The notes under the pieces are model-generated. The model was not told the origin of the DNA. It worked only from the letters and a program-made list of their open reading frames with translations, and made no database searches. Both the position numbers and the translations under genes were made by a program. A stretch of DNA of 64,000 nt from Pseudomonas cichorii (GTDB lineage Bacteria > Pseudomonadota > Gammaproteobacteria > Pseudomonadales > Pseudomonadaceae), in contig NZ_BLVZ01000005.1 of NCBI RefSeq assembly GCF_015471405.1, positions 372,001 to 436,000 on the forward strand, written 5' to 3'. The number at the start of each line of letters is the position of its first letter. The stretch's first letter is position 1. Positions 47,102 to 55,169 of this stretch are shown here, piece after piece.

Positions 47102-47135
47102 ACCGCCAAATCAAGATCCTGTTTCAAGGACGAGC

Positions 47136-48311
47136 ATGACCCAATTCCCTCCAAAGGAAACACCTAGAGCCGTTGCCATTCTGGCCAGCTTCCTGTCATC
47201 GGAATCGGCAGGCGGCATTGTCCTGATGGGCGCGGCGCTGGCTGCACTGATCGTTGCCAACTCACCTCTGGCTCCCGGCTACTTCGCCATTCTGCATAGC
47301 GTCTGGCTGGGGCTTTCCGTCGAGCTATGGATCAACGACGGGCTCATGGCGATCTTCTTTCTGATGGTCGGCCTGGAAATCAAACGCGAAGTACTCGCCG
47401 GCGGGCTCGCCACGTGGGAACAACGCGCTCTGCCCGGTTTTGCAGCGGCAGGCGGCATGCTGGTCCCGGCGTTGATCTATATAGCGATCAACTGGGGCAA
47501 CCCGCAGACCATCAGCGGCTGGGCGATCCCCGCGGCAACCGACATTGCTTTCGCACTCGGGGTTTTGTCATTACTGGGCAACCGGGTGCCTGTGTCCCTG
47601 AAAGTGTTCCTGGCAGCGCTGGCGATTCTCGACGATCTGGGGGCCGTGACCATCATCGCCTTCTTCTACAGCTCGGGCCTGAATCTGCCCATGCTGCTGG
47701 CGTCCTTCGTGACCCTGGCAGTGCTGGTTGCGATGAACCGCCTGAAGGTGCGGCGCTTGTTGCCGTACCTGATACTGGGCGCGCTGCTGTGGTTCTTCGT
47801 GCTGCAATCGGGCGTGCATGCCACGCTGGCAGGTGTTGCGCTGGCGCTGTGCATTCCCTTGGGCAAACCAGAGGAAGAAGCGCGCTCGCCACTGCTGTTT
47901 CTTGAAGAAAAGCTGCATTACTGGGTCGCGTTCGCCATCGTGCCGGTGTTCGGATTCGCCAATGCGGGGGTTTCACTTTCAGGCATTTCTGCAGAAAACC
48001 TGCTGGACCCTGTACCGCTCGGGGTTGCGCTGGGGCTGTTCGTCGGCAAGCAGATCGGTGTTTTCCTGGCTGCGGCGCTTGCGATCCGGGCCGGGCTTGC
48101 GGTTCTGCCACAAGGCAGCAACTGGGTGCAGCTCTATGGCGTGGCGCTGCTTTGCGGCATCGGTTTCACCATGAGCCTGTTCATCGGCAACCTCGCTTTC
48201 CCCGGCGCAGTGCATCTGGTGGACGAGGTAAAAATCGGCGTTCTCATGGGTTCGGGGTTTGCCGCGATTGCAGGTGTGCTGCTGTTGCGCAGCCGTTTCA
48301 GTCGGCCCTGA
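47136..48311 (+). CDS. nhaA: Na+/H+ antiporter NhaA
   Basis: Inner-membrane antiporter for sodium and pH homeostasis. 391 residues with about 12 membrane helices. The essential Asp pair is in [20 protein letters not shown], with LNDG-type [21 protein letters not shown] and [17 protein letters not shown] as further markers. Its place right after hutD is not expected from function; there is 34 bp between them, so co-transcription is possible. Confidence 0.95.
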
Positions 48312-48417
48312 AAAAATATTTTCAAATCACTGCATCCAGATTGTTTTCTCGCGGGTAGTACATACAGCAGCCACTTCGAGTTGCTGAGCGCGGTTAAACA
48401 ATCTGGAGATTTTCTGC

Positions 48418-48951
48418 ATGAACGCAAAACGTTTGCTCTGCCTTGCAGGTAGTACCCTGGCTCTCACTTGCCTGACTTCTGTTGCCATGGCTCAGACCTC
48501 CCTACCCGAAAGCGTACGGGTCCCGGACGGTCACAAGATCACTCTGGAAACCACCGGCGTGGGCGAGATCACTTACGAATGCCGCGCCAAGGCCAACTCT
48601 GCTACCGAAACCGAATGGGTATTCGTCGGCCCCAAAGCTGTCCTCAATGATCGCAGCGGCAAACAGGTCGGCACTTACTACGGCCCACCGGCTACCTGGG
48701 AATCCAAAGACGGCTCCAAGCTGACCGGCACTCAAGTGGCCGTTGCACCTTCCAGCGCGGGCAACCTGCCTTACCAACTGGTCAAGGCCAATCCGGCTGA
48801 AGGCAAGGGTGCCCTGACCGGTACGGCCTACATCCAGCGCGTGGCACTGAAAGGCGGCGTTGCACCAGCCACTGCCTGCTCGGCCAGCAACAAGGGCGCG
48901 AAGGAAGTGGTCAAGTACCAGGCTGACTACATCTTCTGGGCCAGCAAGTGA
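48418..48951 (+). CDS. DUF3455 domain protein, exported
   Basis: 177 residues with a signal peptide (cleavage after SVAMA, before QTSLPES). The DUF3455 core is seen as GEITYECRAKANSATETEWVFVGPKAVL, GTYYGPPATWESKDGSKLTG and PYQLVKANPAEGKGALTGTAYIQRV. Function unknown; a periplasmic or secreted place is likely. It lies 104 bp before the ECF sigma gene, in the same direction. Confidence 0.85.
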   Translation: MNAKRLLCLAGSTLALTCLTSVAMAQTSLPESVRVPDGHKITLETTGVGEITYECRAKANSATETEWVFVGPKAVLNDRSGKQVGTYYGPPATWESKDGSKLTGTQVAVAPSSAGNLPYQLVKANPAEGKGALTGTAYIQRVALKGGVAPATACSASNKGAKEVVKYQADYIFWASK

Positions 48952-49055
48952 TCAAAGCCATTCAATGGGGTGCCGCGCAGTCAGTAGTCTATGCTGCTAC
49001 GCGGGAGCCTTGTGATGTCAACGAGGCAGCAATCATCCATTGATGGCGGATCGAC

Positions 49056-49622
49056 GTGTCTTCACACGAATCTCTCTTTGACTACGAAGCCACGCTGCAT
49101 GCCTGCGCCCGCGGTGAGCGCCAGGCATTGCAGCGTCTCTATCAACAGGAAAGCGCCCGGCTGCTCGGCGTCGTCGTGCGGCTCGTGCGTGACAACGCAC
49201 TGGCGCAAGACATCGTGCATGATGCATTCCTCAAGATCTGGACCCATGCGGCAAGCTTCGATCAGGCAAGAGGTTCGGCACGCGGCTGGATTTTCAGCGT
49301 GACCCGTCATCTGGCGCTCAATCGCCTGCGCAACCATGCCCGGGAAGTACGCCTGGAAGACGATGGCAGCGAGGACCACCACGAAGCTGCCACCCTTGAA
49401 GGCTGGCAGGAAACCGGCGATGCCTTTGACTGGCGCGTCAATCCGGGACGGATTCAGTTCTGCCTGGAACAGCTTGAACCGGTGCGACGCAACTGTGTTT
49501 TTCACGCTTACGTGGACGGCTATTCGCATCAGGAAATCGCGCAGAAAATCGGCGCGCCCTTGGGTACGGTCAAAGCCTGGATCAAGCGCAGCCTTACGGC
49601 TTTGCGGGAGTGTATGGGATGA
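49056..49622 (+). CDS. ECF-family RNA polymerase sigma factor
   Basis: 188 residues. Region 2 includes ALAQDIVHDAFLKIWTHAASF and GSARGWIFSVTRHLALNRLR; region 4 is GYSHQEIAQKIGAPLGTVKAWIKRSL. GTG start. The gene overlaps the anti-sigma gene by four bases (ATGA), the usual layout for a membrane-controlled sigma factor. Target genes are not known; DUF3455 upstream is a candidate. Confidence 0.92.
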   Translation: MSSHESLFDYEATLHACARGERQALQRLYQQESARLLGVVVRLVRDNALAQDIVHDAFLKIWTHAASFDQARGSARGWIFSVTRHLALNRLRNHAREVRLEDDGSEDHHEAATLEGWQETGDAFDWRVNPGRIQFCLEQLEPVRRNCVFHAYVDGYSHQEIAQKIGAPLGTVKAWIKRSLTALRECMG

Positions 49623-50320
49623 CTCGGCCTACAAATGAAAACATCAATGAGCTGGCCGGCGAGTACGTGCTCGGCACCTTGTCTGCCCAGCAAAGAATCG
49701 ACATCCAGAACCGGCTGGCACATGAGCCCGATTTGCAGGCCGCAGTCGATGCCTGGGAGGAACGCCTGCTGCCGCTGACGGCAATGGCCGAACCTGTGAC
49801 GCCCGCGCCGGGACTCTGGAGCCGTATCGAACGCAGCATCACCGAGCTCTCCGCCAACAGAACCGAACCGCAACGTACACGCTGGTGGGACAGCCTTTCG
49901 ATCTGGCGCGGGCTGGCCGGGGCCGGACTGGCCGCATCGCTGGTGCTGGGCACGATGCTTTTCATACAGCCATCGCAGGCACCGTCCTACCTGGTCGTAC
50001 TCGTCGCCCCACAGGACAAGGCGCCTGGCTGGGTCGTCCAGGCCAGCAACTCGCAGGAAATCCAGCTCATTCCACTGGGCGAAACCCAGGTCCCTGCGGA
50101 CAAGGCCCTGGAGTTCTGGACCAAGGCTGACGACTGGCAAGGACCGGTATCACTCGGCTTGGTAAAACCGGGCCAGACCCTGCATATACCGCTCGATAAA
50201 TTGCCACCGCTGCAACATAACCAGTTGTTCGAGCTGACACTGGAGAAGTCCACGGGCTCGCCTGTTGGTAAACCGACCGGACCGATACAGTTTATCGGGC
50301 GGGCGGTGAAGGTGATTTAA
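49619..50320 (+). CDS. Anti-sigma factor, RskA-like
   Basis: 233 residues. Cytoplasmic N-terminal sigma-binding part (NINELAGEYVLGTLSAQQRI, then DAWEERLLPLTAM), one membrane helix at about 98-116 (GLAGAGLAASLVLGTMLF), and a periplasmic RskA-like domain (YLVVLVAPQDKAPGWVVQAS, LEFWTKADDWQGPVSLG). No zinc-binding His-Cys motif in the N-terminus. Co-translated with the sigma factor. Confidence 0.88.
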   Translation: MTRPTNENINELAGEYVLGTLSAQQRIDIQNRLAHEPDLQAAVDAWEERLLPLTAMAEPVTPAPGLWSRIERSITELSANRTEPQRTRWWDSLSIWRGLAGAGLAASLVLGTMLFIQPSQAPSYLVVLVAPQDKAPGWVVQASNSQEIQLIPLGETQVPADKALEFWTKADDWQGPVSLGLVKPGQTLHIPLDKLPPLQHNQLFELTLEKSTGSPVGKPTGPIQFIGRAVKVI

Positions 50321-50341
50321 CCTGCTGCACCGGCCCCACCT

Positions 50342-51529
50342 TCAACGGATGCGTTCCTTGTACTGGCGAGGATTGAACCGCAACACAATCCCGATCATCA
50401 CCACCATCACCGCTGTCAACGTCCACCACGCCCCCTCGAAACTCCCCGACTGGTCACGGATGACGCCAGCCAGCAGAGGAGACAGGCCAGCTATCAGATA
50501 GCCGATGCCTTGCACAAAGGCGGTCAGGCTTCCGGCACGGGCCGGGTTATCGATATGGTCCATGGAGATGATCAAACTCATCGGGAACAGACCGCCGATC
50601 CCCAGTCCCAGCAGACAAGGCCACAGCATGGTCAAGTGTTCAAAGGACAGAATAAGGCCGCTGAAACCGGCAATGATCAGCAGCAACAAGGCAGCCAGCG
50701 CCCAACGTTTGTCCCGAGTCTGATTGACCATCGCAGGCACCGCCAGACCGGCCAGCACTTCCATCGCTGTCAAAAATCCCAGCACCAGCCCGGCGTCCTG
50801 CTCGCTCCAGCCTCTTTCCACGTAATAAGGCGCAAGCCAGGCCAGCACACAGGTGTAGGAAGCCGTGCCAAGGCCGAAGAACACGGCCAACAACCAGGCG
50901 CGTGGATTGCCGAAAAACGAGTCACTTTTGCCTTTGGGAGCGGCTTCGACGACCGGAATCGCCGAGCGTTGAAACGTCCACAGGACCAGCGCCAGCAACG
51001 CGAGCACACCCCATATCGCCAACGAAACCTTCCAGCTACCGCTCTGCTTGAGCACGAAGGGCGAGAACGACGCCGCCAGTGCAGCACCGCCCATGATCGA
51101 GGTGACATACAGGCCCATGAACAGGGACACGTTGTCCTTGAAACGGGTCTTGATCAAGGCCGGCATCAACGCCTGAATCATCGCGATCCCCAGTCCAGAG
51201 AGGACTGCACTCACGATCAACTCCAACGCGCCATCGATGGACAGCCGGGACGCACTGGCGATACCAATCACTAGCAGCGACAACCCGATTGCCCGATGCT
51301 CGCCCAATGACTGAGCCAGCCGCATCCCGAAAAACATCCCGAGCCCCATCGCCATCACCGGCAACATGGTCAACAGCGAGGCCAGGCTAAAACTGAGGGG
51401 AATATCACCCCGAATAGCCGACAGAAGCGGCCCGATGGCCGCCATGCCGGGCCGAAGATTCAACGCCACCAGCACGACACTGGACATCAACCAGAAAGCG
51501 TGAGTGGTTGAAGCACGAATGTTTTCCAT
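50342..51529 (-). CDS. MFS transporter, CynX/NimT-like
   Basis: About 395 residues and 12 membrane helices; N-terminal LVALNLRPGMAAIGPLLSAI is typical of the CynX/NimT branch (cyanate or 2-nitroimidazole type). Substrate unknown. ATG 51529 chosen over the GTG just before it. Faces the anti-sigma gene. Upstream begins the AT-rich islet. Confidence 0.85.
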   Translation of the reverse strand: MENIRASTTHAFWLMSSVVLVALNLRPGMAAIGPLLSAIRGDIPLSFSLASLLTMLPVMAMGLGMFFGMRLAQSLGEHRAIGLSLLVIGIASASRLSIDGALELIVSAVLSGLGIAMIQALMPALIKTRFKDNVSLFMGLYVTSIMGGAALAASFSPFVLKQSGSWKVSLAIWGVLALLALVLWTFQRSAIPVVEAAPKGKSDSFFGNPRAWLLAVFFGLGTASYTCVLAWLAPYYVERGWSEQDAGLVLGFLTAMEVLAGLAVPAMVNQTRDKRWALAALLLLIIAGFSGLILSFEHLTMLWPCLLGLGIGGLFPMSLIISMDHIDNPARAGSLTAFVQGIGYLIAGLSPLLAGVIRDQSGSFEGAWWTLTAVMVVMIGIVLRFNPRQYKERIR

Positions 51530-51532
51530 CAC

Positions 51533-51813: not shown

Positions 51814-52596
51814 TCACCCAAGAAACCTTGAATACCTTACATAAACACCATGCCGATCAACAGGATTTTGATATTTACGAATCCCTGGATCGCTACTATA
51901 TAGAAACACTGGGCTAGGTGGGTCGTTAGGGACATGGCGAACTAACCAAGGAGCACGACTTTCATCATTCCTAGACGATAAATATGCAGTCTCACGCCGC
52001 AACCCTAGGGCTTCCCTAACACACTCCTTTTGTGCACTCCTCACATTCTTGCAACTAACAGCCAAACAAATATCTTCATGTGACGGATAGAGAGCTATTC
52101 CAGCTTTAAAAACCCCCACATCAAGCTCATGATATGCAGCTGGCGGCACAGAGGAATGAGCCTGAGGTAAACAACGTAAACCTGACTGGCTTATAAACCA
52201 ACTAAGGGTATAAGCCTCAACCGAAATCCACGCCTCCAAATCATCACTACCTGCACAACTCATTAAAAAATGAGAAAACTTCTTCCGATTGGCAGAAGCA
52301 GGACTAAGAGCAATCACAACCTCATGACTGAGTCCTTTACCATTTAACGGAGCAACATGTTTAATTGAGGTACCGGCCTGCCTAGAGTACGCCCTCAAAA
52401 CCCTCCACAAGACCTGTAATTCAAACAACTTATCAATAGAAACCTTTGACCGCAATGAAATAGGTAAAGCGCTAGTTTTTGAAGCGATATTGAATAGCTT
52501 TTCTATTTTATCTATCAACCCCGAAGGAGTAGGAGGCTTTTTACTCTTCACTATTAAACTCTTCTTCTGACGGAATAAGCCCTTTAAAATATCCAT
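51814..52596 (-). CDS. Unknown protein, possible PD-(D/E)XK-like nuclease
   Basis: 260 residues from ATG 52596; a GTG at 52551 would cut the overlap with the upstream gene from 56 to 11 bp and give 245. I do not recognise a named family. The C-terminal half has a helix with Glu (DDLEAWISVEAYTLSWF), then YHELDVGVF, then LAVSCKN, then a helix AQKECVREALGLRRETAYL. Order and spacing resemble a PD-(D/E)XK core with Asp in ELDV and a Ser-x-Lys in place of Glu-x-Lys. This is inference. No signal peptide or membrane helix. Clearly richer in A+T than the core genes. Downstream partner of the 148-residue gene. Confidence 0.7.
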   Translation of the reverse strand: MDILKGLFRQKKSLIVKSKKPPTPSGLIDKIEKLFNIASKTSALPISLRSKVSIDKLFELQVLWRVLRAYSRQAGTSIKHVAPLNGKGLSHEVVIALSPASANRKKFSHFLMSCAGSDDLEAWISVEAYTLSWFISQSGLRCLPQAHSSVPPAAYHELDVGVFKAGIALYPSHEDICLAVSCKNVRSAQKECVREALGLRRETAYLSSRNDESRAPWLVRHVPNDPPSPVFLYSSDPGIRKYQNPVDRHGVYVRYSRFLG

Positions 52597-52987
52597 ATAA
52601 CTCTTGCTGACGCACAGGAACTTTTTTCTTTAACTGGGCCTTTAATCGAAATGGCTTATCAAAGCCGACAATCACTGCATCCGAAATAGGTTGCTCAAGC
52701 AAAGATGATAACCCATCAAATATCTCTTGTGCAGTCGCTTTTGTAGCGGGGAATGCAAGAGAAAAAAGCATTGCCAATGCCTCCTCAAATATCCACTTAA
52801 TATCCGAATCTTCAGACTTAGGTGACAATCGCTCGGCATCACCGTCAGGATCAACGTTATTATCTTCAGTACTGAGATCTGTTCTCCGCGCCAACTCATG
52901 AAACTCTGCTTCTTTAGGCCCACGATACGCCACTGCAAGCTCATGAATACGCTGGATAGCTTTTACCATTTCCTCCTTGGTCACCAT
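52541..52987 (-). CDS. Unknown small acidic protein, partner of the nuclease-like gene
   Basis: 148 residues from ATG 52987 (a GTG just before is the alternative; GAGGG lies upstream). No recognised domain. N-terminal helix KEEMVKAIQRIHELAVAYRG, an acidic middle (STEDNNVDPDGDAER), a helical part IFEEALAMLFSLAFPATKATAQEIFDGL, and an acidic C-terminus. Its end overlaps the next gene, so both are probably one operon. AT-rich like its partner. Confidence 0.72.
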   Translation of the reverse strand: MVTKEEMVKAIQRIHELAVAYRGPKEAEFHELARRTDLSTEDNNVDPDGDAERLSPKSEDSDIKWIFEEALAMLFSLAFPATKATAQEIFDGLSSLLEQPISDAVIVGFDKPFRLKAQLKKKVPVRQQELYGYFKGLIPSEEEFNSEE

Positions 52988-53014
52988 CACCCTACTGCCC
53001 TCATCGAAATATTT

Positions 53015-53599: not shown

Positions 53600-54862
53600 T
53601 TATCGAAGCCGACGGATGTTGTCGTTGATCTGATACTGGATGGTACTCAGGGTTTCTGAAGTGATTTGCTGGGGGAACCTGTTTTTGGCCATGGCCGTAA
53701 AGTCGCTGGCAACGTCACAGACTTTCTCAATGACGGAGCCTGTCTCACGAGATGAAAGCCCAACCTCTTGTCTTCCAAGAAGAACAAGGCTCTTTCGGCT
53801 AATATCCAGAGCTTCGCCCATCACGTCCATTTGGTGATAACCACCCGGTCCGTCGCAGAAGGTCACGTCATAGGCAGGAGCCAGCGTCCATTCGCCGGTT
53901 GACGACATGATGTACGCGAAGTTCTTGGGATGATCGTCTCGGTTGTTGAATACGACATTGAAAACAATCCTCTCATAAGCGATCACTTGCTCTCGTACAT
54001 CGTTGGTACACATCAAGGTCGCACGCAGAAAATTGGCATAATCCAGAGATCCTGGGGTCTGGAAGTCGGCTCCGGTAAAGGCAGCCAGACTCTGCATGGG
54101 GATTCGCATACCGGCTTGTCGATCAAACCGTTTTGTAGCGAAGGCCGTCTGGCCATTGGGGAGTTTGAAGTACTGCGTTTGCGGTGTATCAATACCGCAC
54201 TTGTGCAAACATTCGGAGTAAACCGCTTCGATTGCACAAACTTCGGGATGCTCCTGCCTGGCCGGGAACTTGATCAACCAAGCCTCCAGGTCAGGTGCAG
54301 CAGTAATGGTGAATATATCACTTGCGGGAGCACGATAGAGTAAGGCTTTTGGCCTAGCCCCTTGGGGAGAACCCCCCATTTGCAACAGCCTCTGCAAGAA
54401 CTCTCCACCTTCACCATTGAGCACGTCCTGGACCTCGACAGCCAGTCGGGCAAGGGGAATATCTTCTTGCGATATAGATGCCTCTGGCACCATCGGCTCA
54501 AATGACATCGCGCCCATGGCATTGGCACCGATGTAAGTCAGGCGTTCCAGAGGACCAATACGTACAGGATTGAGACCACGGCGCTTGAACAGGCGATCCA
54601 TCAACAGCATGCCCCAGCCGTCAGGCAGGGAATCATAGATAGGGCCGGGCAGCCCCAACTGGTGAGCGGGAAAGTCTGTACGCAGTTTGGGTCCACTTAA
54701 GGGAAGCTTGTAGGCCGACAGTTCAAGCCCTCTGTTCTTCGCCTCATCACTGAACTCAAATGCAATCAGCGGGCGTCCGTTAATAGCGGTCGATGAAACA
54801 AGTGTGCCCCAACGCCAATGTTCTCCCCAGCCATCGTAGTAGACGTCGACCTGCTTATGCAT
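53600..54862 (-). CDS. hipA: HipA-family serine/threonine kinase toxin
   Basis: 420 residues. HipA N-subdomain 1 (YYDGWGEHWRWGTLVSS, PGPIYDSLPDGWGMLLMDR) and kinase-like core: Gly-rich loop GGSPQGARPKALL, Lys in AWLIKFPA, catalytic loop FNNRDDHPKNFAY (about residue 305) and metal site APAYDVTF. All key residues are present, so the toxin should be active. E. coli HipA phosphorylates glutamyl-tRNA synthetase. ATG 54862 overlaps the end of hipB; the frame is open 38 codons further but that part lies inside hipB. Confidence 0.93.
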   Translation of the reverse strand: MHKQVDVYYDGWGEHWRWGTLVSSTAINGRPLIAFEFSDEAKNRGLELSAYKLPLSGPKLRTDFPAHQLGLPGPIYDSLPDGWGMLLMDRLFKRRGLNPVRIGPLERLTYIGANAMGAMSFEPMVPEASISQEDIPLARLAVEVQDVLNGEGGEFLQRLLQMGGSPQGARPKALLYRAPASDIFTITAAPDLEAWLIKFPARQEHPEVCAIEAVYSECLHKCGIDTPQTQYFKLPNGQTAFATKRFDRQAGMRIPMQSLAAFTGADFQTPGSLDYANFLRATLMCTNDVREQVIAYERIVFNVVFNNRDDHPKNFAYIMSSTGEWTLAPAYDVTFCDGPGGYHQMDVMGEALDISRKSLVLLGRQEVGLSSRETGSVIEKVCDVASDFTAMAKNRFPQQITSETLSTIQYQINDNIRRLR

Positions 54863-55169
54863 TGTTGGGTTTCCTCTTGGCACGGTGGCGACTGGCGCTG
54901 TTTTCATAGCGGAGAATGTCGTCAAGGCTTTCCAGCTTAGGCTGGAACAGCCCTTCCAGCTCGTTGATACGTCCAAGCACCATTGCTACACGGACCAGAC
55001 TCTCGAATGCAACGTTTCGGCCTGCTTCCAGATTGGACACAGTGTTGACGCCAATGCCTGCGCGCGCAGCTACATCTGCTTGTGTCATCTGCTGCGCCAG
55101 TCGCTCTTTGCGCAACCGCTCGCAGAGCAATTTGACAAGCTCGTCGGGTCTTTTGAATTCTAAATCCAT
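54855..55169 (-). CDS. hipB: HipB-like antitoxin, XRE family
   Basis: 104 residues with a helix-turn-helix of the Cro/C1 type: MTQADVAARAGIGVNTVSNLEAG. The C-terminal tail is basic (RHRAKRKPNNA). Binds HipA and represses the operon. Overlaps hipA by 8 bp. An inverted repeat that may be its operator lies just upstream (55172-55212). Confidence 0.92.
   Translation of the reverse strand: MDLEFKRPDELVKLLCERLRKERLAQQMTQADVAARAGIGVNTVSNLEAGRNVAFESLVRVAMVLGRINELEGLFQPKLESLDDILRYENSASRHRAKRKPNNA

Follow-up and report, generated by a model that had tools for sequence, protein, structure and literature searches.

A rare two-gene unit of Pseudomonas cichorii with a candidate PD-(D/E)XK nuclease and a small positional partner

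Two overlapping genes lie where the hut locus of Pseudomonas cichorii is interrupted, and we were interested in what they encode: is the second product a nuclease, as its residue order suggests, and what might the small first product do beside it? We analyzed the surrounding 64,000 nucleotides of contig NZ_BLVZ01000005.1 (the window), for which an earlier note, made from the letters alone, had proposed a divergent PD-(D/E)XK enzyme.

The gene pair and its relatives

The first gene of the pair, gene A, occupies positions 52541–52987 of the minus strand in the open reading frame listing and encodes an acidic protein of 148 residues from the ATG at 52987 (computed pI of 4.78), or of 149 residues from a GTG at 52990. 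The second, gene B (51814–52551, minus strand), encodes a basic protein of 245 residues from a GTG at 52551; an alternative ATG at 52596 would extend it to 260 residues. The two genes overlap by 11 bp with the former start and by 56 bp with the latter. The GTG start is favored because the relative from a Cupriavidus necator plasmid (L002) starts at the equivalent place (MTKKAPAAPSL), and the 245-residue form is accordingly the more likely true product. Residue numbers below follow the 260-residue form. Both reading frames lie within 51814–52990, overlap on the same strand and thus form a real pair, present in one copy in its own assembly. Its GC content is 43%, against 58% for the whole window. 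The description in the earlier note, of two AT-rich, overlapping minus-strand genes with an acidic 148-residue protein first and a 245–260-residue protein second, therefore stands. A scan for promoters and terminators gave values inside the shuffled expectation.

The libraries that we searched hold no model for either protein. The window A and B proteins matched nothing in Pfam, NCBIfam or the PADLOC-DB 2.0.0 models at E ≤ 10, so no toxin or antitoxin domain was recognized in either of them, and five further B proteins gave no PADLOC match at E ≤ 1. The single PADLOC match of an A protein, HamB for that of locus L007 at an E-value of 0.0058, is regarded as chance and was not taken as an identity. 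The PHROGs matches of six proteins (E ≤ 5) were not credible either, the best being 0.042 over 23 residues. A profile search of the PDB with B returned no solved structure at E ≤ 10, and the 46 sequences returned with A (best E-value of 0.2) were mostly influenza HA2 chains, also regarded as chance. AlphaFold models were too poor to serve as a fold test for B (five sequences, pLDDT 35) or for a fold search with A (pLDDT 54). A literature search, weak in itself and no proof of absence, found no such gene pair described. The A-B pair is a rare two-gene unit, unmodeled in the libraries searched.

The B family is rare and found in scattered bacteria. By protein search, B occurs in two of 249 genomes from the genus and in three of 398 from the phylum, its own genome included, and a profile search found it in one of 274 genomes of the class, namely its own. 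Profile searches centered on two other genomes, and counting these, gave two of 299 genomes of the phylum and one of 190 of the class for G535, and four of 61 genomes of the genus for G341. Further relatives reside on the Cupriavidus plasmid, on one Pseudoalteromonas plasmid and on one fecal “phage” scaffold; the plasmid and phage searches yielded one B record each, and repeat searches recovered only the same two. Ten viral contigs carry nearly the same B gene as G341. A search of viral contigs with a single B protein or with a profile of the ExK clade (defined below) found none, and the Ser-clade profile recovered the same ten. The E. coli genomes showed no DNA match to the pair. With near-identical copies of the G341 gene counted as one locus, seven distinct loci were found, including the window. 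The Cupriavidus B gene (L002:7998–8708) is broken in its record by frame changes across the SCK motif region and was excluded from all B alignments, which leaves six intact proteins. The alignment row of L008 starts four codons ahead of its ATG, and L015, a near-identical copy of the G341 type, was retained as the fifth row for structure prediction.

Residue order and profile similarity of B

Eighteen columns are invariant in the six intact B proteins. They include K56 and Glu59, the latter in the first predicted helix (DKLFEL; codon at 52420–52422, minus strand), which spans residues 54–72 in the low-confidence model. The candidate catalytic strand HELDVGVF (residues 156–163; 52108–52131, minus strand) contributes His156, Glu157 and Asp159. 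Within the LAVSCKN stretch (residues 178–184), C182 and K183 of the SCK motif (residues 181–183; 52048–52056, minus strand) do not vary. Further invariant columns are K190, E195, G198, R200, R201 and E202 in a helical segment (K190–E202; 51991–52029, minus strand), modeled with the same low confidence as helices 189–196 and 200–206. Because the five relatives are only 21–47% identical to B, chance is not the explanation for the invariance of H156, E157, D159, C182 and K183. The earlier note had regarded free variation of the ELDV and CK residues as evidence against a nuclease. H, E, D, C and K do not vary at all, and it is the Leu and Val positions that change, Leu giving way to Ile and Val to Ile or Leu.

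The residue before C182 divides the family. The window, L009 and L010 proteins have Ser there; those of L006, L007 and L008 have Glu, their rows reading GVECKA, GVECKN and GVECKN. The latter three carry the complete PD-(D/E)XK order of a helix Glu, an Asp and (D/E)xK, and the former three replace the Glu of ExK while keeping the other catalytic-type residues. A supported branch (98/94) separates the Ser rows from the rest, a grouping to be read with only six rows, long branches and 47 of 500 shuffled label sets that also cluster. From the alignment, the Ser before CK appears to be a clade-specific replacement of Glu. Two proposals of the earlier note thus hold in the relatives: the order of Glu-helix, HELDVGVF, LAVSCKN and following helix as in a PD-(D/E)XK core is kept, and the reading of Ser-x-Lys as standing for Glu-x-Lys agrees with the canonical motif in three of them.

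A profile comparison with hhalign connects B to the Card1/Can2 nucleases (DUF1887; Pfam family PF09002, Card1_endonuc). Against a profile of 25 PF09002 members taken from genomes, B scored 35.6 (E-value of 6e-5, probability of 64%) over 28 columns, the Glu clade alone 33.8 and the Ser clade alone 28.9. Controls reached 11.4 for the reversed profile, 12.9 for gene A and at most 19.1 in 200 column shuffles; the positive control, Mrr against Card1, scored 39.6. With nine Card1_endonuc members, B scored 28.9 against at most 19.8 in 100 shuffles. The match is limited to the columns around the motif and fails in global mode (5.4); a forced extension pairs E59 with the Glu of WLE in Card1_endonuc, at no confidence. 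Mrr_cat was discarded as a relative of B, its score of 13.7 lying within the controls (reversed 16.1, gene A 17.5, shuffles up to 18.9), so the profile similarity to the PD-(D/E)XK superfamily was found with Card1_endonuc and not with Mrr_cat.

The likeness consists of a strand pair, E-L/I-D followed by xCK, which is also present in B, the HELDV of B being aligned with NELDV of Card1_endonuc. The Can2 double variant E276A/D278A is described as inactive (PMC7969007). B differs in being short, in having its first Glu and its Asp some 100 residues apart, and in being accompanied by gene A. No CARF domain was recognized in the window protein by Pfam at E ≤ 10. The PF09002 model itself matched neither window B (E ≤ 10) nor five further B proteins (E ≤ 1). 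In its catalytic strands B thus appears to resemble Card1/Can2 closely, yet it falls outside the family in the Pfam definition. The helix and strand order in the model of B, untrustworthy as it is at its pLDDT, is compatible with the four-strand PD-(D/E)XK core flanked by helices. Considering the motif order, the invariance and the short profile match, we regard it as probable that B has the PD-(D/E)XK nuclease fold.

Could a Ser be tolerated in such an active site? The motifs of the 25 Card1_endonuc members are 21 ECK, two SCK and one WCK, with one member lacking the motif; SCK is not unique to B because two of these 25 also carry it. Migration of catalytic residues is described as a known habit of the superfamily (PMC1189080; PMC551604). 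The catalytic residues of PfoI are reported to be E113, E167-x-D169 and K187, in yet another permuted form of the canonical motif, and other enzymes of the CCGG family (Cfr10I, NgoMIV) have the order K ... D/E, with the acidic residue after the Lys (PMC6344858). B shows the same residue order as PfoI, E59 ... E157-x-D159 ... K183, and has an acidic E195 after the Lys that could serve likewise. We infer by this analogy that E157 or E195 may replace the lost carboxylate in the Ser clade. The likeness is one of residue order only, since no sequence match between these enzymes and B was found, and, in another difference from them, no methyltransferase lies among the window neighbors scanned.

Partner gene, neighbors and proposed role

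At all seven distinct loci, B is immediately preceded by a small open reading frame of 119–156 residues, which either overlaps it or ends 2 bp short of it. By blastp, a relation is seen among the A proteins from the window, L002 and L009 (E-values of about 1e-8 to 2e-29) and between those of L007 and L008 (6e-5); those of L010 and L006 have no detectable relation to other A proteins. Between the two clades no homology of A was detected, hhalign giving 13.9 against up to 14.7 in shuffles. The partnership of A and B is therefore a matter of position: A may evolve fast, or the role may be filled by small proteins of different kinds. Five of the seven A proteins are acidic (pI below 5) and two are not; four of six B proteins are basic (pI above 9) and two are not.

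In the window, the pair is preceded upstream by hipA (53600–54976, minus strand; HipA_C 1.7e-39, Couple_hipA 8.8e-9; true start probably further in) and hipB (54855–55169, minus strand; HTH_3 1.3e-10), which gave weak generic PADLOC matches only (1.6e-5 and 8.1e-6). The earlier note had placed the pair in an islet beside hipBA that interrupts the hut locus. A search for the hutU region matched 14 of 19 genomes (own included) at 18 places, of which 12 loci from 11 genomes were compared, the window's own locus and five partial or fragmentary ones being set aside. Because hutC/hutD directly precede hutU in seven of these 12 loci (not so in the other five), about 8.3 kb (roughly 47.1–55.4 kb) appears to be extra in the window. 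Both the interruption and hipBA are thus confirmed, but the segment between hutD and hutU is wider than described and more than a defense islet: it comprises nhaA, DUF3455, a sigma/anti-sigma pair, an MFS transporter, A-B and hipBA.

In line with the earlier note, defense genes occur near several other copies of the pair, with restriction, GajB-like, SIR2-HerA or HD-ATPase genes at four of the six other loci. The PADLOC-scanned neighbors, all picked by eye, were four of L002, three of L009, three of L010/L015, seven of L011, one of L007 and two of L008, and ten other window genes, also chosen by eye, gave no match as a control. In L008, SIR2 (4.8e-76) and HerA (5.8e-143) are present, the HerA gene ending 311 bp before A; L011 holds a type III methyltransferase, PDC-S11, PDC-S26, REase-ARP and a UvrD-type helicase; and L002 has a GajB-like frame (1.8e-144) and PDC-S02 about 4–6 kb away. 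Elsewhere the PADLOC matches are weak or lacking: L007 has an HD-CE/HATPase protein just downstream (PADLOC only 7e-4), L009 a ResIII helicase and a prlF-like antitoxin (at best 7e-11), and in the L010 (G341) group no PADLOC match was found in three genes of the block described next. The neighborhood is suggestive only.

In that group, the pair sits in a 4.1-kb block (L015:5065–9162) of an HNH gene, a 283-residue gene, A, B and a 237-residue gene. Over the parts that each sequence covers, the block of L015 shares 99.7–99.97% identity with 13 others (L010, L013, L014, L016–L022 and L026–L028; 14 in all). To its left, six of them match at no more than 75–98%, and four viral contigs lack any match across 150 bp. 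The block lies beside differing filamentous-phage genes, and its left edge (TGACTGCCAC) is sharp and identical in its first bases in all eight sequences examined. Zot (7.7e-17) and a G2P-type Rep mark a filamentous prophage in L010. We considered the pair as cargo inside this prophage in G341 and rejected it, as the prophage is bounded by an 18-bp direct repeat, which we take to be dif-like, and the block begins about 190 bp beyond it.

How might these elements work together? A and B would form a conflict unit of two translationally coupled genes that has moved horizontally. B would be a metal-dependent PD-(D/E)XK nuclease with catalytic strands similar to those of the Card1/Can2 effector domain. 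In the Ser clade, the carboxylate would come from the HE-x-D residue Glu157, on the pattern of PfoI, or from Glu195, on that of the CCGG enzymes, and would keep the enzyme active. As the window neighbors scanned include no methyltransferase, B would have to be restrained by other means than modification; A, made first and overlapping B, would most likely bind and restrain it. Infection or stress might then free B from A, allowing B to cut nucleic acid and to stop the phage or the growth of the cell. The fold and activity of B, its control by A, its trigger and its target are all conditional parts of this proposal. From gene position and neighbors, control by A together with a defense role is the likeliest reading, and to B as a regulated nuclease of a toxin-antitoxin-like or abortive-infection unit, with A as its control, we assign a probability of roughly 45%. 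Only tentatively would we go on to propose a two-gene immune family of Proteobacteria, in which a Card1-like stand-alone nuclease is paired with a fast-diverging regulator and the clade whose active site was rewired from ExK to SxK still cuts, the Glu of HE-x-D compensating as in PfoI.

The gene order of A-B, two overlapping genes with the small one first or with a 2-bp gap, is that of type II toxin-antitoxin modules at every one of the seven loci. B could then be a plain toxin acting on host nucleic acid and A its antitoxin, an addiction module that keeps a mobile segment rather than one directed against phages. The adjoining hipBA of the window and the nearly identical block beside differing phage genes are in line with this, but A and B lack a recognized toxin or antitoxin domain and the defense genes near several copies point, weakly, the other way, and we consider such a module unlikely. 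Less probable still is that B serves as a restriction-type or accessory nuclease for a neighboring helicase or methyltransferase system, in which A would confer specificity or act as an adaptor: the SIR2-HerA genes immediately ahead of the L008 pair and the type III methyltransferase in L011 would suit this role, but the neighbors vary by locus and the window neighbors scanned include neither a methyltransferase nor a helicase.

It is equally doubtful that B keeps the fold with catalysis lost in the Ser clade, or is no nuclease at all. The Ser of the window, L009 and L010 proteins, the lack of any library or structure match and the failed model would fit such a loss. Against it, the Ser clade keeps E59, E157, D159, K183 and E195 without exception and on its own still scores 28.9 against Card1_endonuc, and three relatives have the full ExK. 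If our preferred reading of a nuclease controlled by A is true, bacterial conflict systems gain a family that has no model in the libraries searched, and a nuclease without a methyltransferase would be restrained by a partner that differs in sequence between lineages. The ExK and SxK clades in the same gene arrangement would also make a swap of the catalytic carboxylate testable.

Further features of the compared loci

Several features of the compared sequences were noted besides. The three PF09002 matches with a motif other than ECK (two SCK, one WCK) are L082, L083 and L099. In the window, the nhaA, DUF3455, sigma/anti-sigma and MFS genes between hutD and the pair occupy 47102–51532 and are absent from seven of the 12 hut loci. 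At L009 (3399–7691), a ResIII/DEAD helicase of 979 residues is followed by a 427-residue protein, DUF4365-like by eye and with no Pfam match at E ≤ 0.001; the two are possibly a separate defense unit. The 4.1-kb block is cut within its 237-residue gene in L102–L105 (G341, G953, G902 and G924) and in L020, where the joint presumably starts like the end of a Tn21-type transposon. The DNA beyond the cut carries, by eye, mercury-resistance-like genes.
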